Source: Candidatus Nesterenkonia stercoripullorum
GTDB lineage: Bacteria > Actinomycetota > Actinomycetes > Actinomycetales > Micrococcaceae
Assembly (NCBI GenBank): GCA_019114115.1
Contig: DXGD01000122.1
Location: forward strand, 1 to 15,543
Direction of reading: 5' to 3'
DNA length: 15,543 bases
Positions 1,035-14,311 of the stretch are shown piece by piece. Both the position numbers and the translations under genes were made by a program. The notes beneath the pieces are model-generated. The model had not been told where the DNA came from and did not search any database. It saw only the letters and a list, made by a program, of their open reading frames with translations. How positions within the stretch are numbered: position 1 is the first letter of the stretch; the number at the start of each line of letters is the position of its first letter.

Positions 1035-1496
1035 ATGGAAGAGGTCACGCTGCATATCGCAGAACTGCCGGATATACCGCCCCGCATCCTGTACGAGATT
1101 CTGCGACTGCGCGTCGATGTCTTCGTCGTGGAGCAAGAAGCGGCCTACCCCGACCTGGACGGCCTGGACACCGTGGCGGGCACGGAACTGCACTGGGCCC
1201 AGCGCGGCGAGCAGGTGCTGGCCACGCTGCGGCTCATGCACGGAACAGCCCGCCCTGAGCTGCAGATCGGCCGCGTTGTCGCCGCGCGCTCGGCACGCGG
1301 GACCGGTATCGCAGCCACGCTCATGGAGCAGGCGATGCAGCGTTGCGCTGAGCTCAGCCCGAACTCACCGGTCATCCTCAATGCCCAGGAGCCGCTCACC
1401 GGCTGGTACGGCCGATTCGGCTTCGTACCCTCCGGCGAGCGCTACCTGGAGGACGGCATCCCGCATATCCCCATGACCGCCGGGCGCGCTGCCTAA
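1035..1496 (+). CDS. ElaA-family GNAT N-acetyltransferase
   Basis: The 153-residue protein belongs to the GNAT superfamily, which moves an acetyl group from acetyl-CoA to an amine. The ElaA branch is recognisable from LRLRVDVFVVEQ (23-34), PDLDGLD (39-45), the acetyl-CoA pyrophosphate loop RSARGTGIA (85-93), and the C-terminal signature YLEDGIPHIPM (137-147). Length is typical of ElaA (about 150). The physiological acceptor of ElaA proteins is not established. The ATG at 1035 was chosen because homology begins immediately after it and a -10-like hexamer lies eight bases upstream, suggesting a leaderless message. The TAA stop overlaps the stop codon of the convergent aminotransferase gene by four bases. 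Confidence 0.9.
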   Translation: MEEVTLHIAELPDIPPRILYEILRLRVDVFVVEQEAAYPDLDGLDTVAGTELHWAQRGEQVLATLRLMHGTARPELQIGRVVAARSARGTGIAATLMEQAMQRCAELSPNSPVILNAQEPLTGWYGRFGFVPSGERYLEDGIPHIPMTAGRAA

Positions 1497-2926
1497 CCTT
1501 CCGCGACGACCCGGTCGGCGAGGTCCAGGGCCTCGTCGAGCACATCGAGGCCGTAGCGGATGTCCTCTTCGCTGACGTTCAGCGGCGGGCAGATGTGCAG
1601 CCGGTTCATGTTCGGGTATGGCAGCACGAAACGCTCGCGGGCGAACGCCACGATCTCACTGGAGACTGCGGGCACCTGGCCGTACTCAGACAGCGGTTCG
1701 CGGGTCTGGCGGTCCTTCACCAGCTCGATGGCCCAGAAGACGCCTGTGCCTCGGACATCGCCCACACTGGGGTGGCGTTCCTTGATCTGCTGCAGCCGTG
1801 GCCCGATGACCTCCTCGCCGATGCGGGCGGCATGCTCGACCATCTGCTCATCGTGCATGGCGTTGATCGTGGCGACCGCGGCCGCCGTCGCCAGCGGGTG
1901 GCCGGAGTAGGTCAGGCCGCCCGGGTAGGGCTGCTCGGCGAAACGAGCGTAGATGTCGTCGTCCATGACGACGCCGCCCAACGGCACGTACCCGGAGTTC
2001 ACGCCCTTGGCGAAGGTCACGATATCGGGATCGATGCCGTAGTGCTGATGCGCGAACCACCGGCCGGAGCGCCCGAAGCCTGCCATGACCTCGTCCATGA
2101 TGAGCACGATGCCGTACTCGTCGCACAGCTCCCGCACACCGGTGACGTACTCCTTCGGCGGGGCGTAGATCCCCGCCGTCCCCGGGATCGCCTCCAGGAT
2201 GAGCGCCCCGACAGTGTGGGGCCCTTCGAGCTGGATGACATCGCGCAGGTGGTTCAGTGCCCGCTCGGCCTCTTCGGCGTCGTTCTGGGAGCCGAAGTAG
2301 GAGCGGTAGGGGTAGGCGGGCAGGAAGTGCACGACGCCGTCGGTCGCCTTGTCCGAGGCGAACCGGCGCGGATCGCCGGTCATGTTGATCGCCAGGTGCG
2401 TACCGCCGTGATACGAGCGGTACGCCGAGAGGACCTTGTGCCGGCCGGTGTAGAGCCGGGCCATGCGCACGGCATGCTCATTGGCATCGGCGCCGCCGTT
2501 GGTGAAGAAGACGTGGTTGAGGTCATCGCTGAGCAGCTCGGTGATCAGCCGTGCCGCCTCGGAGCGCGCCGCGTTGGCATGCTGCGGCGCCACGGTGCAC
2601 AGCTTCTGGGCCTGCTCCTGGATCGCTGCGACGACCTTCGGGTGACGGTGGCCGATATTGGTGAAGACCAGCTGGCCGGTCAGGTCGAGCAGGGGCTTCC
2701 CTTCACCGTCCCAGACCCAGGAGCCCTGGGAATCCACGATGGTCATGGGCGAGAGCTTCTCCTGCGCGCCCCACGAGTGGAACACATGCTGACGATCCAG
2801 CTCATAGGCACGACGGCCCTCCGCGATCTGGTCCTCGCTCGCACGGGTCTCAGTGACGCTGGGCTGCGCTGCACTCTCGGGCTGCGCAGAACTCTCGGTC
2901 CGCGCACTGGTGGATGGCTGTGCCAT
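1493..2926 (-). CDS. Class III PLP-dependent aminotransferase (omega-transaminase type)
   Basis: The 477-residue enzyme has the fold-type I class III layout. Visible are GGAD (144-147, where most relatives have GSEA) for the PLP phosphate, SYHGG (171-175) with the ring-stacking aromatic, MDEV (277-280) with the PLP-nitrogen aspartate, and TFAKGVNSGYVPLGG (304-318) with Schiff-base Lys307. YSGHPLATAAA (340-350) and VRGTGVFWAIEL follow. The subgroup resembles actinobacterial enzymes annotated as aspartate, taurine or omega-amine aminotransferases and is clearly different from the DavT sequence I recall; the amine donor cannot be read from sequence. The ATG at 2926 is favoured over one at 2977 because GAGGAAGAAGG lies just upstream. 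It is third in the TetR-MFS-aminotransferase operon, 70 bases after the pump gene. A role with 5-aminovalerate is possible from context only. Confidence 0.9.
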   Translation of the reverse strand: MAQPSTSARTESSAQPESAAQPSVTETRASEDQIAEGRRAYELDRQHVFHSWGAQEKLSPMTIVDSQGSWVWDGEGKPLLDLTGQLVFTNIGHRHPKVVAAIQEQAQKLCTVAPQHANAARSEAARLITELLSDDLNHVFFTNGGADANEHAVRMARLYTGRHKVLSAYRSYHGGTHLAINMTGDPRRFASDKATDGVVHFLPAYPYRSYFGSQNDAEEAERALNHLRDVIQLEGPHTVGALILEAIPGTAGIYAPPKEYVTGVRELCDEYGIVLIMDEVMAGFGRSGRWFAHQHYGIDPDIVTFAKGVNSGYVPLGGVVMDDDIYARFAEQPYPGGLTYSGHPLATAAAVATINAMHDEQMVEHAARIGEEVIGPRLQQIKERHPSVGDVRGTGVFWAIELVKDRQTREPLSEYGQVPAVSSEIVAFARERFVLPYPNMNRLHICPPLNVSEEDIRYGLDVLDEALDLADRVVAEG

Positions 2927-2996: not shown

Positions 2997-5308
<2,312 letters not shown>

Positions 5309-5314
5309 GAGTAC

Positions 5315-5343
5315 AGTTTATGCACTGGTGCAACTTTGCACAA
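5315..5343 (-). promoter_or_regulatory. tetR operon promoter
   Basis: Read on the minus strand, TTGTGC (5343-5338) and TAAACT (5320-5315) are separated by 17 bases, and the -10 ends six bases before the tetR ATG at 5308. That predicts transcription starting at the start codon. Matches to consensus are three of six and four of six, which is modest, but spacing and placement are good. The two palindromes cover the -35 and the whole spacer, as a repressor site would. Confidence 0.5.
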
Positions 5344-5349
5344 GTGCAA
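5320..5349. promoter_or_regulatory. Two tandem 14-bp palindromes, likely TetR operator
   Basis: On the plus strand ATGCACTGGTGCAA (5320-5333) and TTGCACAAGTGCAA (5336-5349) stand two bases apart, giving 16 bp centre to centre. Both fit the pattern WTGCACnnGTGCAA; the second is a perfect inverted repeat apart from its centre and the first has one mismatch. Tandem dyads over the promoter of an autoregulated TetR gene are the usual arrangement, and adjacent sites can be filled by two dimers. Distance to davA at 5473 is about 125 bases, so davA control is possible but not shown. Confidence 0.65.
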
Positions 5350-5460
5350 CAATCGTCTGTTCGGTCACACTATGGAGTCACTCACGCAGAGCCAGGAGAC
5401 GCGGACATGGGGTTGCGCTCGCCGTAAGAACCGGGGGTGGTGCCGGCAGCCGGCGTGACG

Positions 5461-5466
5461 CACAAT
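5461..5466 (+). promoter_or_regulatory. -10-like hexamer before davA
   Basis: CACAAT ends six bases before the ATG at 5473, the same spacing as in the divergent tetR gene. It matches four of six bases of TATAAT. No convincing -35 is visible, and GAGA just before the start could instead be a weak ribosome binding site. Confidence 0.3.
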
Positions 5467-5472
5467 GAGACG

Positions 5473-6345
5473 ATGCGCATCGCTCTGCTTCAGGACACGG
5501 CCTCTGTGCTCGATGCGGCGAGCAACCTCGCTGTCATCGGCGATGCCGCGCGCCGCGCACGGGAGGGCGGCGCCCGGCTGCTGGTCACTCCCGAGCTGTT
5601 CGTCCACGGGTACGCTCCGCAGCGCCTGCGCGCGGAGCTCGAACCGAGCGCCGTAGAGTCCGCCCTTCAGCGCCTCGGAGAGATCGCCCGCGCATCCGGG
5701 ATCGCTCTGATCGGCAGTCTTCCGAGCCCCGGGGATGCTGCAGCGCGCGGCATCGACGCCGTCCACATCGACGCCGACGGGGCCCTGCGCGCCCGCTACA
5801 CCAAGACCCACCTGTTCGGCCCTGACGAGCGCGCCGCTTTCGTGGCAGGCGATCGGCGGCCCCCGGTCGTGGAGGCTGAAGGACTCCGCATCGGCATGCT
5901 GATCTGCTACGACGTCGAGTTCCCCGAGTGCGCCCGGCAGCTCGCACTGGAGGGCGCCGACCTCATCGCGGTCCCGACCGCCCTGGCCGGCGACTTCCCG
6001 CAGATCACCTCGCTCATCGTGCCGACCCGCGCGCTGGAGAACGGCGTGAGCATCGCCTACGCGAACCATACGGGCAGCTCCGACGGCCTGCACTTCCACG
6101 GGCGGAGCCTCGTCGCCGGACCGGAGGGACGTGCCCTCGCCTCGGCCGGGGAGGGCGCTGAGCTGCTCTTCGCAGACATCTCCCCGCGGCCGCACCCGGC
6201 GGCCGCTCCGGGAATACCGGGGCCGCAGACCTCGGGGTCCGGCGGTGACGGCGCCCCCGCTCAAGCCGACGAGGACACCCCGGACTATCTCCGCGACCGC
6301 CGTGGGGCGCTGTACCGTGACTGGCAGGCCACGATGAAGCACTGA
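5473..6345 (+). CDS. davA: 5-aminovaleramidase-like amidase (nitrilase superfamily), DavA
   Basis: DavA hydrolyses 5-aminovaleramide, the DavB product, to 5-aminovalerate and ammonia in lysine catabolism. The 290-residue protein has the Glu-Lys-Cys triad of carbon-nitrogen hydrolases: Glu41 in TPELFVHGY, Lys111 in YTKTHLFG, and Cys145 in LICYDVEFPE. The opening MRIALLQ, the KTHLFG block and the ICYD-EFPE block agree with the Pseudomonas DavA sequence as I remember it. A Pro/Gly/Ala-rich insertion (about 239-270) precedes the C-terminal DYLRDRRGALYRDW, making it about 25 residues longer than the 264-residue Pseudomonas enzyme. The ATG at 5473 is chosen over an in-frame GTG at 5437 because homology starts exactly there. 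Its position 69 bases before davB is the main support for the specific call; by sequence alone it could be another omega-amidase. Confidence 0.85.
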   Translation: MRIALLQDTASVLDAASNLAVIGDAARRAREGGARLLVTPELFVHGYAPQRLRAELEPSAVESALQRLGEIARASGIALIGSLPSPGDAAARGIDAVHIDADGALRARYTKTHLFGPDERAAFVAGDRRPPVVEAEGLRIGMLICYDVEFPECARQLALEGADLIAVPTALAGDFPQITSLIVPTRALENGVSIAYANHTGSSDGLHFHGRSLVAGPEGRALASAGEGAELLFADISPRPHPAAAPGIPGPQTSGSGGDGAPAQADEDTPDYLRDRRGALYRDWQATMKH

Positions 6346-6414
6346 CCCTGCCCGCGTACCTGCAGCCCAGGACGCCAGCTCACACCCCCGAACGCCAACC
6401 CGAGGACCAGGTGC

Positions 6415-8115
6415 ATGACCCTCTCCACGCCATTGCACGATGAGGAATTCCACGCCGGGCGCCCGAATGAGCGGCCGCTGACGATGTGGGGGCCGGACTT
6501 CCCCTTCAGCTACGACCACTACCTCCAGCACCCTGCAGGGCTCGGCGAGCTGCCCCAGCAGCACCACGGTGAGGAAGTCGCCGTCATCGGCGCCGGCGTC
6601 GCGGGGATCGTCGCGGCTTACGAGCTGATGAAGCTGGGTCTGAAGCCCGTCATCTTCGAGGCAGACGCGATCGGCGGCCGGCTGCGAACCGAAGCGTTCA
6701 GCGCAGCGCCCGACGTCGTCGCCGATCTCGGGGGGATGCGCTTCCCGGAGTCGGGACGCGCGTTCTACCACTACGTCGACCTGCTCGGCCTGGAGACCAG
6801 GGCGTTCCCCAATCCGCTGGCCGAGGTCACCCCCTCCACGGTGATCGACCTCAAGGGCGAGCCGATATTCGCCGAGACCCCCGATCAGCTGCCCGACTTC
6901 TACCGCGACGTCGCCCAGGCCTGGAAGCAGACGATGGCCGAAGACGCCCAGATCGAGGCGATCCAGCAGGCGATCCGCGAGCGCGACGTCGCCACCATCA
7001 AGTCGCTGTGGAACCGGATGGTCGAAGAGCTCGACGATGAGTCCTTCTACGGCTTCATCTCCTCCTCCGCAGCGTTCTCCTCGCGCAGCTACTCCCACCT
7101 GGAGACATTCGGGCAGGTCGGGTTCGGCACCGGCGGGTGGGACACCGACTTCACCAATTCCATCCTCGAAGTGCTGCGCGTGGTCTTCACCGACGCGGAT
7201 GACCACCATCGCAGCATCGTCGGAGGCGCCCAGCGGCTGCCGACCGGATTATGGCGCCACCAGCCTGCGAGCATCCGGCACTGGCCGGCTGGCACCTCGC
7301 TCTCCTCGCTGCACGGCGGCACACCACGCGGCGCGGTCCGCGCCATCCAGCGCGGGGCCGGCGGCGGCATCCAGATCACCGAGCGCTGGGGGCGTCAGCA
7401 GGAGTTCGCGGCCGCCGTCGTGACGTGCCAGTCCTGGCTGCTCTCCTCGCGGATCGATACCGCGGAGTCGCTCTTCCGCCCGGAGATGTGGACGGCCATC
7501 GAGAAGAGCCACTACATGCTCTCCTCGAAGACGTTCGTGATGGTGGACCGGCCCTTCTGGCGCGATACCGACCCCTCCACCGGCCGTCCGCTGCTCTCGA
7601 TGACCCTGACCGACCGGCTCCCCCGCGCCACCTACCTGCTCGACGAAGGACCCGACAGGCCGGCGTCGATCCTGCTGAGCTATACCTGGAACGACGACGC
7701 CCTGAAATGGCTGGCCCTCGACGCCGAGGAACGCACCCGGCTCATGCTGCACTCACTGGGAAAGATCTACCCAGGGGTCGATATCGGCTCCCATATCGTG
7801 GGCGAGCCGATCACGGTCTCCTGGGAGGCCGATCCCAATTTCATGGGGGCATTCAAGAACAACCTGCCGGGCCATTACCGCTACCAGGAGCGCCTCTTCG
7901 GGCATTTCATGCAGCAGGACCTGCCGGAGCATATGCGCGGCATCTTCCTCGCCGGTGACGACATCTCGTTCACGGCCGGCTGGGCCGAAGGGGCGGTGAC
8001 GACGGCGCTCAACGCCGTCTGGGGAGTCATCGACCACCTGGGCGGGCACTGTGCGGCCGAGAACCCCGGCCCCGGAGACCGCTGGGAAGAGCTGGCGCCG
8101 ATCCGGCTCGCCTGA
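6415..8115 (+). CDS. davB: Lysine 2-monooxygenase (FAD), DavB
   Basis: The 566-residue flavoenzyme matches lysine 2-monooxygenase (EC 1.13.12.2), which converts L-lysine and O2 to 5-aminovaleramide, CO2 and water. Resemblance to the Pseudomonas putida protein, as I recall it, is extensive: GPDFPFSYD (26-34), the FAD dinucleotide motif VIGAGVAGIVAAYELMKLG (57-75), GGRLR (87-91), LGGMRFP (105-111) with the substrate-carboxylate arginine, GQVGFGTGGWD (233-243), SSKTFVMVDRPFW, TVSWEADP, and the C-terminal flavin segment GIFLAGDDIS (about 508-517). Cysteine 254 of the Pseudomonas enzyme, reported to influence the oxidase/monooxygenase balance, is Ala261 here. GAGGACCAGG precedes the ATG. It lies directly after davA, so the two form an operon. 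Confidence 0.93.
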   Translation: MTLSTPLHDEEFHAGRPNERPLTMWGPDFPFSYDHYLQHPAGLGELPQQHHGEEVAVIGAGVAGIVAAYELMKLGLKPVIFEADAIGGRLRTEAFSAAPDVVADLGGMRFPESGRAFYHYVDLLGLETRAFPNPLAEVTPSTVIDLKGEPIFAETPDQLPDFYRDVAQAWKQTMAEDAQIEAIQQAIRERDVATIKSLWNRMVEELDDESFYGFISSSAAFSSRSYSHLETFGQVGFGTGGWDTDFTNSILEVLRVVFTDADDHHRSIVGGAQRLPTGLWRHQPASIRHWPAGTSLSSLHGGTPRGAVRAIQRGAGGGIQITERWGRQQEFAAAVVTCQSWLLSSRIDTAESLFRPEMWTAIEKSHYMLSSKTFVMVDRPFWRDTDPSTGRPLLSMTLTDRLPRATYLLDEGPDRPASILLSYTWNDDALKWLALDAEERTRLMLHSLGKIYPGVDIGSHIVGEPITVSWEADPNFMGAFKNNLPGHYRYQERLFGHFMQQDLPEHMRGIFLAGDDISFTAGWAEGAVTTALNAVWGVIDHLGGHCAAENPGPGDRWEELAPIRLA

Positions 8116-8133
8116 GAATCAGCCACAGGGCTG

Positions 8134-8733
8134 ATGTGGGGCTTCGGGTACTACGCCAAAATGGGTACCATGCTCGAGACACTCCTGCACCTGCCTGACA
8201 CTTCGATTCTGGCCTCCACCGTCGATACCGGCATGATCGATGAGGACAGCTGGATAGGCCGCCTCCAAGGCTGGGTCGAGGGCCTGCCCCCCACCCTGCA
8301 ATGGCTCGGCATCATCCTGATCTCGTCGATCCCCTTCATCGAGTCCTACACCGGCGCCCTCATCGCGGTAGTCGCAGGGATCCACCCCGTGGTCGCCGTG
8401 TTCGTGGCGTCGCTGGGGAACATGCTCTCGCTCATCCTCGTGGTCTACATCGCCCACGGTGTGCGCAGCTCGGTGACCAAACGCACCGACAAACCCGTCG
8501 ACGAGAAACAGCAGGCGCGGCGCGAGAAGATCAAGCGCATCTTCGACAAATTCGGCGTGCCCGGCGTCTCCCTGCTCGGCCCATTTGCTCTTCCCTCCCA
8601 GATCACCGCTCCGATCATGGTCTCCTTCGGCGCCTCCCGGAACGCCGTCATGGTGTGGATGCTGATATCCGTCATCGTCTGGGGCATCGGCTTCGGACTG
8701 CTCGGCTGGGGGCTGCTGCAGCTGCTGAGCTGA
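8134..8733 (+). CDS. Small multi-drug export family membrane protein (PF06695-like)
   Basis: The 199-residue inner-membrane protein has hydrophobic segments at about 55-80, 85-107, 142-166 and 171-197, with a basic cytoplasmic loop (111-139). The conserved blocks of the family are visible: SSIPFIESYTGA (64-75), the ASLGN segment (92-96) and FGVPGVSLLGPFALPSQITAP (140-160). Despite the family name, direct evidence for drug export is thin, so I make no substrate claim. Three in-frame ATGs (8134, 8161, 8170) could be the start, none with a good ribosome site; homology begins only around residue 55. It follows davB by 18 bases on the same strand, so it is probably co-transcribed with davAB, and it ends at a strong bidirectional hairpin shared with lysG. 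Confidence 0.82.
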   Translation: MWGFGYYAKMGTMLETLLHLPDTSILASTVDTGMIDEDSWIGRLQGWVEGLPPTLQWLGIILISSIPFIESYTGALIAVVAGIHPVVAVFVASLGNMLSLILVVYIAHGVRSSVTKRTDKPVDEKQQARREKIKRIFDKFGVPGVSLLGPFALPSQITAPIMVSFGASRNAVMVWMLISVIVWGIGFGLLGWGLLQLLS

Positions 8734-8772
8734 GGCATGCCAGGACCGGCCCCACCTGGCGAGCCGGCCTCA
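8731..8772. terminator. Nested bidirectional terminator between the convergent export gene and lysG
   Basis: An outer stem TGAGGC/GCCTCA (8731-8736 with 8767-8772) encloses an inner stem GCCAGG/CCTGGC (8739-8744 with 8755-8760) with a ten-base loop. The outer stem includes both TGA stop codons, one on each strand. There is no long T run on either side, but the symmetry and the 36-base convergent gap make a two-way terminator the natural reading. Confidence 0.5.
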
Positions 8773-9660
8773 GCGCAGGATCCGGGCGGCCCGCTGCACC
8801 GCGGCGGTGAGGCGGTCGACCACCGGCGTCGTCGAGGACCAGTGCTGCCAGTGCAGCGCCGCTCGCTGCACCCCCAGCTCGGGAATCATCACAAGATCCG
8901 CGTGCGTGCCTTCGAGCAGCTTCGCCGGCATCTGGATCTCCGGCATCATGCCCCAGCCCAGGCCGAACCGCACCGCGGCGTTATAGGCCTCGACAGAGGG
9001 CACGAGATGGGTGACCGGGGTTTCGCCTCCGGTGAGCCGGCGCAGGGCATTGCGCTGGAGCGAATCGCGGATCGTGAAGTCGACCAGGGGAACCCGGTGC
9101 CACGCGACGAGGCCGTCGGCACCGCGGTGCCGGTCCAGCAGCTGCGCGCTGGCCACCGGCCAGTAGGTCATCGTTCCCAGCGACGTCGAGCGGCATCCGG
9201 GGATCGCTGTCGGACGGTCGGTGATCGCGGCTGCGACAGAACCGTCGCGCAGCAGCTCATGAGTGTGCTCCTGATCCTCGGCCACGAGGTGAAGCTCGAC
9301 GTCGTCCCAGGTCGCAGCCTCCTGGAGGACGCGGATGAACCAGGTGGCCAGAGAATCGGCGTTGACGGCGACGGCGAGCGTGGAGATCCCGGATCCCTGC
9401 CCCGAGGTGCCGAACTTCAGCGAGCGCCGGGCCTCGTCCTCCAGCATGACGGTCTGCCGTGCGATGCGCAGCAGCGCAGTCCCGCTCGCCGTCGGTGCCA
9501 CCGGCACCGTGCGGGTGACCAGCACGTGGCCGACTTCCTTCTCCAGCGCCTTGATGCGCTGGGAGAAGGCCGAGCCGGATATCCCCAGCAGGGCTGCAGC
9601 GGCGTCGAACGTGCCTTCGTCCACAGCCGTCACGAAGGCCCGCAGATGGTCAGTATTCAC
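8770..9660 (-). CDS. lysG: LysG/ArgP-type LysR regulator of the lysine exporter
   Basis: The 296-residue protein is a LysR-type activator closest to LysG of Corynebacterium glutamicum as I recall it, which activates lysE when intracellular lysine, arginine or histidine is high. The N-terminal winged helix-turn-helix (about 17-45) contains DEGTFDAAAALLGISGSAFSQRIKALE-type features, followed by the linker helix and a periplasmic-binding-like ligand domain. Shared blocks include NADSLATWF, LVPSVEAYNAAVRFGLGWGMMPE and HWQHW. The start is GTG at 9660; homology begins there and an upstream ATG in another frame hits a stop. Only a weak GGTGA precedes it. It is transcribed away from lysE across 178 bases, the classic lysG-lysE layout. 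ArgP of enterobacteria is the orthologous group name. Confidence 0.92.
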   Translation of the reverse strand: MNTDHLRAFVTAVDEGTFDAAAALLGISGSAFSQRIKALEKEVGHVLVTRTVPVAPTASGTALLRIARQTVMLEDEARRSLKFGTSGQGSGISTLAVAVNADSLATWFIRVLQEAATWDDVELHLVAEDQEHTHELLRDGSVAAAITDRPTAIPGCRSTSLGTMTYWPVASAQLLDRHRGADGLVAWHRVPLVDFTIRDSLQRNALRRLTGGETPVTHLVPSVEAYNAAVRFGLGWGMMPEIQMPAKLLEGTHADLVMIPELGVQRAALHWQHWSSTTPVVDRLTAAVQRAARILR

Positions 9661-9775
9661 TGGCGATCACCGTTTCATCCTTGTTTCACCCTTCATCTGC
9701 GTGCTGCCCCGGCGTCGTGGCACGGGCTCTTCTCCGCAGTGCGACGGCAGTCCAGGACGCCACTGATACGGGATC

Positions 9776-9790
9776 TGAAGCATCGCTTCA
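9776..9790. promoter_or_regulatory. Inverted repeat in the lysG-lysE intergenic region, candidate LysG site
   Basis: TGAAGC-atc-GCTTCA is a perfect six-base inverted repeat 49-63 bases before the lysE ATG. LysR regulators bind imperfect dyads of about 15 bp near -65 of the activated promoter, so size and place fit. It is T-N13-A overall rather than the common T-N11-A. The rest of 9661-9838 holds AT-richer sequence around 9795-9822 that may contain the lysE promoter, but I cannot choose hexamers with confidence. Confidence 0.4.
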
Positions 9791-9838
9791 CACAGTACAG
9801 AATATTGCGATGGTACGGATATCCCTTCGGGGCACATC

Positions 9839-10726
9839 ATGGAGGTCATGACCATCGTGATGACAGGACTGCTGACCTGCTTGGCGCTCATCGTCGCCGT
9901 CGGGCCGCAGAGCATCTGGCTGCTGCGCCAAGGGCTGCGGCGAGATCGGATCGTGCTGGCCTTCGTCGTCTGCCTGCTCGGTGACATCCTGCTGGTCGGC
10001 CTGGGGACTGGTGGTGTCGGGGCGGCCCTGGAGCATGCGCCCTGGCTCTTGGAGATCCTGCGCTGGGCCGGTGTGATCTACCTGATCTGGTTCGCCTATC
10101 GCTCCTTCCTCTCAGCCCGCCAGCACTACCGCGGGCTTCAGAGGGCAGGGCACGATCCAGCAGCGCACTATCCCTCAGGGCACTATCCCTCAGGGCACGG
10201 TCCCGCAGAACATGGTCCCGCAGAACACGATCCCGCAGAGCGTTCCGCGCAGTCCAGTCAGCCGGGGTCACTGCGGCAGGAGGATCAGGCACAGGAGGCT
10301 CAGGAGCTTGCGCATGTCATGACCTCGCAACTGGACCTGTCCGAGCTGCAGAGCGCCCCGAGTCGCGGCTCCCGCGAAGCTGGGCCCGCAGCGAGCGCTC
10401 GCCCAGCCGGGCCGTCGGCGGAGCCTGGACCGGCGTCGTGGGGAGCTGTCGCGGGCGCGGGTGCGGCCGTCACGCTGCTGAACCCGCATTCCTGGCTCGA
10501 CACCCTCGTCGTCCTCGGCTCGATGGCCAACAGCTTCGGTGACCAGCGCTGGCTCTTCGCCCTCGGCGCGGTCCTGGCCTCAACACTGTGGTTCAGCGCC
10601 TTGAGCTTCGGCGGATCGGCTCTCGCCAGCTTGCTCGACCGGCCGCGGACCTGGGTGGTCATCGATTCCACGGTGACCGTCGTCATGCTGGGCGTTGCGG
10701 CGATGCTGGCCCTGCACGGCGTGTGA
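9839..10726 (+). CDS. lysE: LysE basic amino acid exporter with an expanded histidine-rich loop
   Basis: LysE exports L-lysine and L-arginine across the inner membrane, driven by the membrane potential. Family marks are VGPQSIWLLRQG (21-32), CLLGDILLVGLGTGGV (45-60), LRWAGVIYLIWFAY (74-87) and LNPHSWLDT (214-222) with the conserved Asn-Pro and Asp. At 295 residues it is about 60 longer than the 233-residue Corynebacterium LysE; the difference is a cytoplasmic loop of about 105 residues (95-200). Residues 105-134 of the loop are six pentapeptides of type H-(D/Y/G)-P-(A/S)-(A/G/E). The N-terminus aligns with the Corynebacterium start, supporting the ATG at 9839, although no ribosome site precedes it. 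Other ATGs at 9848 and 9860 are possible. Confidence 0.92.
   Translation: MEVMTIVMTGLLTCLALIVAVGPQSIWLLRQGLRRDRIVLAFVVCLLGDILLVGLGTGGVGAALEHAPWLLEILRWAGVIYLIWFAYRSFLSARQHYRGLQRAGHDPAAHYPSGHYPSGHGPAEHGPAEHDPAERSAQSSQPGSLRQEDQAQEAQELAHVMTSQLDLSELQSAPSRGSREAGPAASARPAGPSAEPGPASWGAVAGAGAAVTLLNPHSWLDTLVVLGSMANSFGDQRWLFALGAVLASTLWFSALSFGGSALASLLDRPRTWVVIDSTVTVVMLGVAAMLALHGV
10151..10240 (+). repeat. Six in-frame 15-bp tandem repeats inside lysE
   Basis: Six contiguous 15-base units fit the consensus CACKRTCCCKCAGRR: 10151-10165, 10166-10180, 10181-10195 (identical to the previous unit), 10196-10210, 10211-10225 and 10226-10240. They encode HDPAA, HYPSG, HYPSG, HGPAE, HGPAE and HDPAE. Unit length is a multiple of three, so gain or loss of copies keeps the reading frame. 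Confidence 0.9.
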
Positions 10727-12402: not shown

Positions 12403-13680
12403 TCACGCCGGCTGCTGGGCCAGGCCGTCCCCGCGGCTCTGCCCCAGCAGGGCCGCGATATTGCGGATGAACACGACCAGCCAGGCGAAGAGGATCGCCC
12501 CGGCAATGAGCTCCAGCGAGGTGAGGTTGTAGTACCCGATCGGCTTCCACAGCGCCGTCGCACCCACCAGGCCGCCCGCGTAGAGATAGCTGAGCACGTA
12601 GAAGCTCCTCGGGAAGCCCGGCACCCAGTAGGGCATGCCGACGAGCAGGATCATGAAGAACACGCCGAACGACATCGTGGCCGTGGAGTGGATCTGATTG
12701 TGGAAGGTGATCGGCACCAGCCCGACGCCGGCCAGCGAGACGCCCATGCCGATCATCGCCACCCGGACGATGCCGACCCTCGGCATATGCACATGCCGGC
12801 TGAACGCCTGGCGCACCAGCACCCGACGCGGAACTCTGCCGCGCTCGTTGAGCAGGTGCTCCCGACGCTGCTCGATCTGACGATCCTGCGACTCCGCGAC
12901 CTTCGCGGCCCAGGTCTTCAGGTCGTTGGTGATGAACGCGGTCAACGTGGTGATGATGACCCCGGAGACCACCAGGGTGGTGTTGAACGTCCAGAACGAC
13001 GTCAGCCCTGCCTGGCCCGTACCGAGTTCGCTGAACATCACCGACCACCACAGCGGGTTCTCCGCGAAGATCATCGAGACGAGCACTCCCGATGCCATGA
13101 ACAGCGCCAAGAGCGTGGAGAGCGTGAAGGCGTTGATGCGCGCGCCGGAGTTGAAGCTGAAATAGGCCGAGACTCCGCCCATGATGCCCAACAGCACAGA
13201 CCCGGCGATATGGTCGACTTCCAAGCCGAGGAACGCCTCCTGGAACACCCTGAAGATCCCCAGCGACCCCATGACGGCGATCGAAGAGTGCACCACCAGC
13301 AGCGCCACAGTGTCGAGCAGCTGACGCAGCCGCGGGCGCTGGCCCAGCCAGATATTGGCCATCCTGGCGTTCAGCGAGAACCCGAGCAGAAAGGCGATCC
13401 CGGCCGTGATCCCGCCGACGATGGAGGCGTAGAACTGGATCGACCCGTCCCCGGCCAGCGGCGGGCTCTTCCCGACGAAGACGATGGCGCCGAAGATCAC
13501 GCCGATCGCACCGCCGCCGATCGCGCTCCAGATGGCGCGCGATTCGATCATCACCTGCAGCCGGGCCAGGCTCTCCTCCTTGACCTGGCTGGGGGTGTGT
13601 GGATGCGCTGCTTCCTCAGCCGCCACTGTGGCGGCGAGCCTACGCGCCTCCCCTTGGACAGGGGTACGCACATCGTTCAC
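12403..13680 (-). CDS. Unrecognised polytopic membrane protein, about ten helices
   Basis: I do not recognise the family. From a GTG at 13680 the protein has 425 residues. About 45 polar residues come first, then hydrophobic helices near 50-70, 84-103, 122-141, 158-177, 184-204, 233-253, 303-324, 335-353, 360-378 and 387-407. A basic cytoplasmic loop (about 254-300) separates two groups of helices. Noticeable polar spots in or near helices are FSFNSGAR (174-181), TFHNQIHS (325-332) and the MPYWVPGFPRSFY segment (349-361). The GTG is preferred because GAGGCGG precedes it, a TATGAT -10 lies 36 bases upstream, and third-position GC drops before it. In-frame ATGs at 13755 and 13827 exist; the latter would overlap the divergent gene. 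It precedes the FAD oxidoreductase in a likely operon. Confidence 0.8.
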   Translation of the reverse strand: MNDVRTPVQGEARRLAATVAAEEAAHPHTPSQVKEESLARLQVMIESRAIWSAIGGGAIGVIFGAIVFVGKSPPLAGDGSIQFYASIVGGITAGIAFLLGFSLNARMANIWLGQRPRLRQLLDTVALLVVHSSIAVMGSLGIFRVFQEAFLGLEVDHIAGSVLLGIMGGVSAYFSFNSGARINAFTLSTLLALFMASGVLVSMIFAENPLWWSVMFSELGTGQAGLTSFWTFNTTLVVSGVIITTLTAFITNDLKTWAAKVAESQDRQIEQRREHLLNERGRVPRRVLVRQAFSRHVHMPRVGIVRVAMIGMGVSLAGVGLVPITFHNQIHSTATMSFGVFFMILLVGMPYWVPGFPRSFYVLSYLYAGGLVGATALWKPIGYYNLTSLELIAGAILFAWLVVFIRNIAALLGQSRGDGLAQQPA

Positions 13681-13716
13681 GTCAGGCCGCCTCGCATCCT
13701 CAGTTCCACACCCTTC

Positions 13717-13745
13717 ATCATAAGCTGACAGGCGGCTTCGTTCAC
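13717..13745 (-). promoter_or_regulatory. Promoter of the membrane protein/oxidoreductase operon
   Basis: On the minus strand GTGAAC (13745-13740) and TATGAT (13722-13717) are 17 bases apart. The -10 matches five of six consensus bases and lies in an AT-rich patch. Transcription would begin near 13710, leaving a leader of about 30 bases with GAGGCGG before the GTG at 13680. The -35 is weak. Confidence 0.5.
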
Positions 13746-13803
13746 GGCTCAGCATCCTGTTACTTCCCAGCTGAAGTCCAGCCGACGTCATCATGACATG
13801 CCC

Positions 13804-13809
13804 TACACT
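13804..13809 (+). promoter_or_regulatory. -10-like hexamer for a leaderless SRPBCC transcript
   Basis: TACACT ends seven bases before the ATG at 13817, where no Shine-Dalgarno sequence is present. Just upstream, GTCATcATGAC (13787-13797) is an 11-bp inverted repeat in the -35 area and might be a regulator site. No clear -35 hexamer is visible. Confidence 0.4.
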
Positions 13810-13816
13810 TCCACCT

Positions 13817-14311
13817 ATGACTGGCAACTCGGAAATTCAGAACCGACCGCAGAAAGTTCACCGCGGGGAACACGTCGTGGCGTACACGATCACCGTGAAC
13901 GCCCCTGCCGAGGAGCTTTACGCCATGGCGTCCAACCCGCACCGCCACCAAGAACTCGACGGCTCTGAGACCGTGCGGGACACGGCAGTGGGGCCGCGGG
14001 AACTGTTCCAAGGAGACCGGTTCCGCGTCGATATGAACAAATTCGGGGTCAACTACGCGCTGACCTCGGTAGTCACCGAAGCCGAGGCACCCCATGTCGT
14101 CGAGTGGCGGCACCCTGCAGGGCACCACTGGCGCTGGGAGTTCACCCCGGTGGCCGGTGACCCCTCACGCACTGTGGTGACCGAGTCCTATGATGCACGC
14201 GGGCAGAAGCCCCTTGTCAGGCGTGGCTTGTCAGTAGCCAAGGTGCCCGCGGACAATGCCAACGGCATCAAGGCCTCCTTGCAGAAGCTCCACGACCGTT
14301 ACGCCGGCTGA
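13817..14311 (+). CDS. SRPBCC (START/polyketide cyclase-like) superfamily protein
   Basis: The 164-residue protein looks like a helix-grip small-molecule binding domain: a first strand HVVAYTITVNAPAEELYAMASNP (19-41) of the form seen in polyketide cyclase/dehydrase-like proteins, then HHWRWEFTPV and TVVTESYDA strands, and a long C-terminal helix (about 140-163) that would close the cavity. Length is typical. The ligand or reaction cannot be read from sequence; such proteins are often cytosolic binding or stress proteins. The ATG at 13817 is preferred to one at 13793 because TACACT seven bases before it suggests a leaderless start. The CGNR gene follows after 19 bases, probably on the same transcript. 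Confidence 0.82.
   Translation: MTGNSEIQNRPQKVHRGEHVVAYTITVNAPAEELYAMASNPHRHQELDGSETVRDTAVGPRELFQGDRFRVDMNKFGVNYALTSVVTEAEAPHVVEWRHPAGHHWRWEFTPVAGDPSRTVVTESYDARGQKPLVRRGLSVAKVPADNANGIKASLQKLHDRYAG

Follow-up and report, generated by a model that had tools for sequence, protein, structure and literature searches.

A davAB-like gene pair beside lysG-lysE in Nesterenkonia probably encodes an arginine 2-monooxygenase and a 4-guanidinobutyramidase

Which basic amino acid is consumed by a davAB-like gene pair that lies beside the sensor and exporter genes lysG and lysE, and do these neighbours act as one unit? The question is raised by 15,543 nucleotides of Candidatus Nesterenkonia stercoripullorum (contig DXGD01000122.1 of assembly GCA_019114115.1), hereafter the window, from a genome of 2.63 Mb in 499 contigs that is 82% complete. 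The initial annotation had described a lysine monooxygenase pathway in one island with the lysine sensor and exporter; its gene order and coordinates agree with ours, as do a LysG/ArgP-type sensor, a divergent lysE and a DavB-type enzyme with an amidase alongside. We conclude that davB and davA probably encode an arginine 2-monooxygenase and a 4-guanidinobutyramidase, a reading based on homology, pocket residues, the tree, gene neighbours and genome-wide co-occurrence, from which the substrate and products are inferred. The genes in question are:

5473..6345, plus strand: davA-like gene, nitrilase-superfamily amidase / carbon-nitrogen hydrolase (PF00795, 133.9 bits), predicted 4-guanidinobutyramide amidohydrolase
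6415..8115, plus strand: davB-like gene, flavin amine oxidase of class I, predicted arginine 2-monooxygenase (EC 1.13.12.1)
8134..8733, plus strand: small membrane protein gene (SMDR; PF06695, 31.2 bits, cut-off 30.7)
8770..9660, minus strand: lysG, LysR-type regulator of the ArgP/LysG family (PRK03635, 290.9 bits, cut-off 197)
9839..10726, plus strand: lysE, basic-amino-acid exporter family (PF01810, 123.8 bits, cut-off 25.6, match in two stretches)

Between davA and davB lie 69 bases and between davB and the PF06695 gene 18 bases; the end of the PF06695 gene is 36 bases from that of lysG, and lysG and lysE are divergently oriented. A davAB operon ending against lysG had been proposed, and davAB are indeed near lysG, but the PF06695 gene lies between them. 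In the pathway that we propose, the davB product, a flavin enzyme, would convert L-arginine and O2 to 4-guanidinobutyramide by decarboxylation, the davA product would hydrolyse this amide to 4-guanidinobutyrate, from which a ureohydrolase with its gene at another place in the genome would release gamma-aminobutyrate (GABA) and urea.

Pocket residues and tree position of the DavB-like enzyme

The solved structure closest to DavB is 3WE0, a Pseudomonas L-amino acid (lysine) oxidase/monooxygenase (777 bits, residues 18-566, full length), which made the lysine name a natural first guess. We aligned 108 sequences, namely 3WE0, the window and one each from 106 of 109 loci (the split genes L036, L039 and L057 were left out, and eight genomes are counted twice, as the two collections overlap), and read the pocket at native positions 102, 235, 238, 254, 258, 416, 418, 473, 514, 515 and 516. 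The pocket residues of the Pseudomonas enzyme were named by Im 2018 (PMC5832979; papers with PMC numbers are represented here by excerpts). The pocket reads RWDAHYWFAGW in 97 of the 108 sequences, including the window, and RWDAHYWFPGW in two more; it reads RWDCQYWFPAW in 3WE0 and five others, with F or Y at 254 in three more. Read at three positions, A254/H258/G515 marks the window and 98 others, while 3WE0 and eight class II sequences carry Q258 and A515 with C, F or Y at 254, a lysine-type pocket that the window lacks. In the excerpt of PMC5832979, the change of Ala515 to Gly is one of two tied to the wider pockets of the Trp and Phe enzymes.

In a tree of 64 rows, 3WE0 and ten class II rows formed one clade with a Shimodaira-Hasegawa-like approximate likelihood ratio test (SH-aLRT) support of 100, and the window fell outside it, in the large actinobacterial group that we call class I; the root of this tree, which has one very long row (L252), is unsure. 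Window DavB thus has full-length homology, the flavin fold, Asp238, which holds the basic side chain, and the aromatic cage in common with the Pseudomonas sp. AIU 813 L-amino acid oxidase/monooxygenase (L-AAO-MOG; EC 1.13.12.2; 3WE0, 5YB6-8), but it belongs to another clade and carries A254, H258 and G515 instead of C254, Q258 and A515. DavB lies outside the lysine group, and lysine, the substrate first assigned to it, is likely wrong: the pocket, the placement in the tree and the partner gene seen across genomes, described below, disfavour lysine and favour arginine.

Both classes can occur together. Three Nesterenkonia genomes, G003, G028 and G009 (the last by identity only; G, L and C numbers are our labels for genomes, loci and contigs), encode one DavB of each class, in the locus pairs L034 and L049, L031 and L043, and L036 and L057. 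We rejected davAB as a novelty in actinobacteria, as DavB relatives are common there. One genome collection encodes a DavB relative in 209 stretches, of which 80 were kept (79 actinobacterial, one from an Acidobacteria metagenome-assembled genome), and DavB was found at E <= 1e-100 in 73 of 393 sampled Actinomycetes genomes; the 74 loci read from this class-wide sample divide into 71 with G515 and three with A515. A relative 76% identical to window DavB occurs in Corynebacterium yudongzhengii (P0020); C. glutamicum, by contrast, has been engineered with P. putida davB. Some pockets are odd, with N238 beside Q258 in L230 and L254 in L240 and L252.

A guanidino-acid hydrolase as partner gene

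In Nesterenkonia sp. GX14115 (locus L087), a gene for a ureohydrolase sits between davA and davB. We used this protein as the query for partner-gene searches in loci fetched with mostly 8-9 kb on each side. Among the other class I loci of Nesterenkonia, 12 of 15 had a relative of it adjacent to or near davB, or 13 of 16 when the frameshifted G017 is included, against none of the nine class II loci (L036 classed by identity only). At the level of Nesterenkonia genomes, the ureohydrolase was present in all 16 with class I DavB and in 1 of 14 others (p 1.2e-7), the window's genome being counted by a fragment at a contig end; without that fragment the counts are 15 of 16 and 1 of 14 (p 2.4e-6). 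G017, a genome 62% complete, has a frameshifted class I davB (Y at 515, poor sequence) and a frameshifted ureohydrolase gene, and moving it to class I gives 17/17 against 1/13. Class-wide, at E <= 1e-60, the gene was found in 66 of 70 class I genomes, in 0 of 3 with class II only and in 66 of 320 without DavB, in a sample dominated by one genus (g53) and with scoring limited to the top 3 to 5 candidates of each genome. The four class I genomes that lack it are the window's own, G117 (where davB lies in a polyketide cluster), G277 (with a ligase gene some 6 kb off) and G397 (an outlier, 44% identical).

The best solved relatives of the ureohydrolase are guanidinopropionase (275.9 bits) and guanidinobutyrase (272.5 bits), with the best agmatinase at 224.4. 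In the window's genome, a ureohydrolase fragment 66% identical over 134 residues ends contig C461, and nothing else in that genome matched the arginase family at E <= 0.001. A companion amidase and a guanidino-acid hydrolase, as expected for an arginine 2-monooxygenase, are thus both present: davA is adjacent, the fragment lies in the same genome and the hydrolase accompanies class I across the class. Ornithine was considered as a substrate, which would yield the amide of GABA and would leave the ureohydrolase unexplained. The urease alpha subunit is encoded in 6 of 17 class I Nesterenkonia genomes, the window's among them, against 0 of 13 others (G017 as class I).

The amidase has a counterpart of known structure in the same genus. 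The closest solved relative of DavA is the Nesterenkonia amidase 5JQN (228 bits), which is 98% identical to the amidase beside a class I davB in G012; the G012 and window proteins are 48% identical. In the amidase tree, window DavA grouped with those of G028, G009, G003, G008 and G025 (support 86), four of these five being lysG-linked. We take 5JQN to be the AN1 amidase of Nel 2011. The Nesterenkonia aliphatic amidase (5JQN, 3HKX) belongs to the same amidase group as window DavA. The AN1 enzyme of Nel 2011, mentioned in an excerpt of PMC3968332, is described as acting on short-chain amides, with no natural substrate named.

The same two-step chemistry that we propose for davBA is described for azalomycin-type polyketide clusters, which have an arginine monooxygenase, a 4-guanidinobutyramide hydrolase and a CoA ligase (excerpts of PMC5082578 and PMC8944477). 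In such clusters, L-arginine is converted via 4-guanidinobutyramide and 4-guanidinobutyrate to a CoA ester, and the desertomycin cluster has a ureohydrolase-type amidinohydrolase (excerpts of PMC5082578, PMC8944477, PMC10322714 and PMC4737276). The partners there are the CoA ligase and a polyketide synthase, whereas the partner here is a ureohydrolase, suggesting a catabolic role. Two of our loci, L243 and L245, have a DavB relative (A254, G515) grouped with an AMP-binding/CoA ligase, a polyketide synthase and a VinK-type acyltransferase; an amidase is present too in L243, and a ureohydrolase in L245. Their resemblance to the published clusters, one of layout, speaks for arginine. A254 and G515 are common to the window and to L243, L245 and L246, but L243 and L245 have F516 in place of W516, L245 has Q258, and class I, in a tree whose root is unsure, may not be a single clade.

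Several observations weigh against the arginine assignment. When relatedness was controlled for by independent pairs taken from the lysG tree, all three pairs agreed (p 0.25), a number too small to reach significance; the class-wide comparison of class I genomes with genomes lacking DavB (p 2.6e-32) is uncorrected for relatedness. The signature residues mark two clades, which makes them dependent on the tree, and H258 has exceptions, with Q258 in the cluster enzyme L245 and in L230. Three class I Nesterenkonia loci (L040, L041 and L046) and the Arthrobacter-type loci had no ureohydrolase in the stretch searched, and an NCBIfam model names the ureohydrolase agmatinase, above its cut-off. The C461 fragment adjoins the gene of a thiamine-diphosphate enzyme, which might act in a route through 2-ketoarginine, and the second-best NCBIfam model of that enzyme is 5-guanidino-2-oxopentanoate decarboxylase, below cut-off. 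The amidase tree is not split by class, as the cluster amidases and the Streptomyces-like class I amidases (f33 and f35) group with class II, and we dropped amidase subtype as a substrate marker. Finally, the Pseudomonas lysine enzyme itself accepts arginine, with monooxygenase kcat/Km values of 24 for Arg, 74 for Lys and 200 for Orn (excerpt of PMC5832979), so class I could retain lysine activity.

These points bear on two other substrates for the pair. Full-length homology to the Pseudomonas enzyme, the retained Asp238 and cage residues and the source name 'lysine 2-monooxygenase' on 2 of 120 relatives listed (P0059, P0088) would suit a true DavB and DavA that take lysine via 5-aminovaleramide to 5-aminovalerate. 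We consider this very unlikely, with the window outside the lysine-enzyme clade, a pocket that differs at 254, 258 and 515, and both classes coexisting in three genomes. A 5-aminovalerate/GABA-type transaminase is likewise missing beside the window's davB, but such a neighbour discriminates poorly as a lysine marker: it stands beside only 3 of 11 class II loci (L058, L244 and L248) and occurs near L240 and L039 too, which are of class I type. A broad monooxygenase for arginine, lysine and ornithine with an equally broad davA, for which arginine would be one of several substrates, fits the retained Asp238, the undivided amidase family and the Pseudomonas enzyme that takes Lys, Orn and Arg (PMC5832979, excerpt); it is less improbable than a strict lysine pathway and still unlikely, given the strong co-occurrence with a guanidino-acid hydrolase and the division of labour suggested by two classes in one genome. 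An arginine 2-monooxygenase followed by a 4-guanidinobutyramidase thus remains our preferred reading.

Beside the ureohydrolase fragment and the thiamine-diphosphate enzyme, contig C461 (L270, 1653-6334) also carries symporter-like and cupin-type regulator-like genes (both labelled by eye), perhaps a 2-ketoarginine route.

Arrival and control of the pair beside lysG-lysE

The following features surround the genes listed above:

4631..5308, minus strand: TetR-family regulator gene (PF00440, 42.2 bits), next to an MFS exporter gene at 2997-4634
5321..5348, strand not assigned: two TGCACNNGTGCA palindromes starting at 5321 and 5337, likely TetR operator, 124 bases before davA
9772..9807, plus strand: conserved lysE operator, likely LysG site; window form GATCTGAAGCATCGCTTCACACAGTACAGAATATTG, profile from 26 relatives, score 37.1

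We compared 30 stretches from relatives, 29 of them taken around lysG and that from G009 around davA. The series MFS, TetR, SMDR, lysG, lysE and four further genes recurs in Nesterenkonia whether or not class I davB is present, though in some relatives it is rearranged or lacks members. The PF06695 gene occurs near lysG whether or not the relative has davA and is an ordinary member of the neighbourhood, and in Nesterenkonia without davAB at that place the TetR gene adjoins it. The lysG-lysE neighbourhood is therefore ordinary Nesterenkonia backbone, and the idea of a functional five-gene island is at odds with lysG-lysE neighbours that are the same without davAB. Linkage of davB to lysG or lysE recurs in one other genome, that of Nesterenkonia sp. 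GX14115, whereas the initial annotation would have been refuted by a neighbourhood absent from every related genome. The linkage is nevertheless rare: it was found in 1 of 80 loci (L087; a few of the 80 are short), in 1 of 29 stretches of the second collection (L043, from the same genome) and in none of the 74 class-wide loci (stretches of about 5 to 19 kb). We rejected a conserved davAB-lysGE island, and the arrangement has the look of an insertion specific to one lineage, not of a control unit kept by selection across the genus.

The amidase gene may have reached the site before the monooxygenase gene. In G003, G008 and G025, davA stands alone before SMDR, about 5 kb from lysG and with no davB there, which suggests a stepwise arrival; G009 also has davA before SMDR, on a short contig that yielded no lysG. 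The window's davB lies between davA and SMDR. We infer that the amidase reached the lysG site in one lineage and was joined there by davB in the window, so that davAB would have been assembled at an older site between the TetR-MFS unit and the small membrane gene beside lysG-lysE.

The window's regulator and exporter fit the ArgP/LysG type by family model, a divergent exporter gene and an operator between the two. LysG passes TIGR03298 (281, cut-off 273.55), and its PRK13348 (ArgP) score of 248.2 is under the cut-off of 297. It scores 180.2 bits against 6XTV and is identical to C. glutamicum LysG at five of eight arginine-contact residues (contact list from an excerpt of PMC7519686). The divergent sensor and exporter and these contacts are common to the window and the C. 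glutamicum system (6XTU/6XTV; PMC7519686, excerpt), but window LysE has a long insert and, though it passes Pfam LysE, reaches 159.9 bits with TIGR00948 'L-lysine exporter', under the cut-off of 213.65. The insert is about 100 residues long, has a high content of His, Gly, Pro and Ser, and cuts the Pfam match into two stretches. According to excerpts, C. glutamicum LysG binds Lys, Arg and His (PMC7519686), and M. tuberculosis LysG responds to lysine and histidine and not to arginine (PMC5648196). Since the latter ignores arginine, the effector of window LysG cannot be assumed; since the former binds all three, it is possible that davAB and lysG-lysE share a basic amino acid, and this may be arginine rather than lysine.

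Aligned lysG-lysE intergenic regions have a strongly conserved element, TATCTGAAGCATnGCTTCAGAtAgTGAAGgATnnTG. A profile of it from 26 relatives (without G009, which has no lysG match, G030, G032 and G004, which has a gap; the lysG tree likewise omits G009, G030 and G032) scored 37.1 at 9772, against at most 3.2 in 30 mononucleotide shuffles of the window. The initial annotation also suggested a shared logic of sensing, export and degradation, which would make davAB and lysE one LysG regulon. That would suit the adjacency in the window and L087, davA near lysG in G003, G008 and G025, and the range of amino acids bound by the C. glutamicum protein, but the best score before davA (within 5250-5500) was -16.7. 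Nor did L087, L211, L207 and L208, which have davA near lysG, hold a second site: the lysE site scored 41.5 to 48.9 and the next independent site -7.7 or less, while L217, with davA and no lysG, had no site above -7.8. With a LysG operator before davA rejected by these scores, with lysG-lysE neighbours unchanged in genomes without davAB and with no linkage among the class-wide loci, a common regulon is improbable, and LysG probably controls lysE only. TetR, the divergent regulator, may control davAB through the TGCACNNGTGCA pair, though we regard this as doubtful rather than likely. The palindromes are conserved beside TetR, also in relatives without davA there: all 11 relatives with an identified TetR gene have at least one copy, and 10 of the 11 have a pair; the window's pair occupies the TetR-davA gap, and davA begins where relatives carry SMDR. 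The operator may nevertheless serve the TetR-MFS unit alone, and a consensus scan for promoters at 5200-10000 found none. Between the two regulators, TetR is the more likely to touch the davA promoter. The start-to-start spacing of the palindromes is 16 bases in the window and 33-34 in relatives.

Wider reading and remaining features

Arginine 2-monooxygenase activity has been known for decades. Our searches of the open PMC literature met no title or abstract assigning catabolic genes for it in Micrococcaceae, and in the excerpts of PMC5082578 and PMC8944477 an arginine monooxygenase gene is described for polyketide starter units. We tentatively extend our reading as follows, with less confidence than in the assignment of the pair itself. 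Most actinobacterial proteins resembling 'lysine 2-monooxygenase' may be catabolic arginine 2-monooxygenases, marked by A254/H258/G515 and leading from arginine via 4-guanidinobutyramide and 4-guanidinobutyrate to GABA and urea, with the crystallised Nesterenkonia amidase as the second enzyme; in one Nesterenkonia lineage, the amidase and then the monooxygenase would have moved beside lysG-lysE to form an arginine valve whose LysE may release arginine, or even the intermediate amide. An excerpt of PMC12930585 gives C. glutamicum LysE a part in the export of 5-aminovaleramide. If this holds, entries named lysine 2-monooxygenase, tryptophan 2-monooxygenase or 'flavin monoamine oxidase' could be given a function, the residues at 254, 258 and 515 would offer a quick first test of substrate class, engineers seeking lysine-to-5-aminovalerate enzymes would learn which homologues to doubt, and the crystallised amidase would gain a proposed natural substrate.

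Two further genes were annotated in the window:

1493-2926, minus strand: class III aminotransferase (PRK06062, 718 bits, cut-off 472)
12403-13827, minus strand: membrane-like protein, no Pfam or NCBIfam match, 61-69% identical in relatives

Scans of the window with Rfam and for tRNA genes led nowhere, as did a terminator scan. The aminotransferase was considered as the next pathway enzyme; its best solved relative is a taurine:2-oxoglutarate aminotransferase, it was found in 0 of the 30 lysG/davA stretches, and we claim no link. The protein at 12403-13827, despite having no family match, shows this 61-69% identity in those relatives that carry it unbroken close to lysG.

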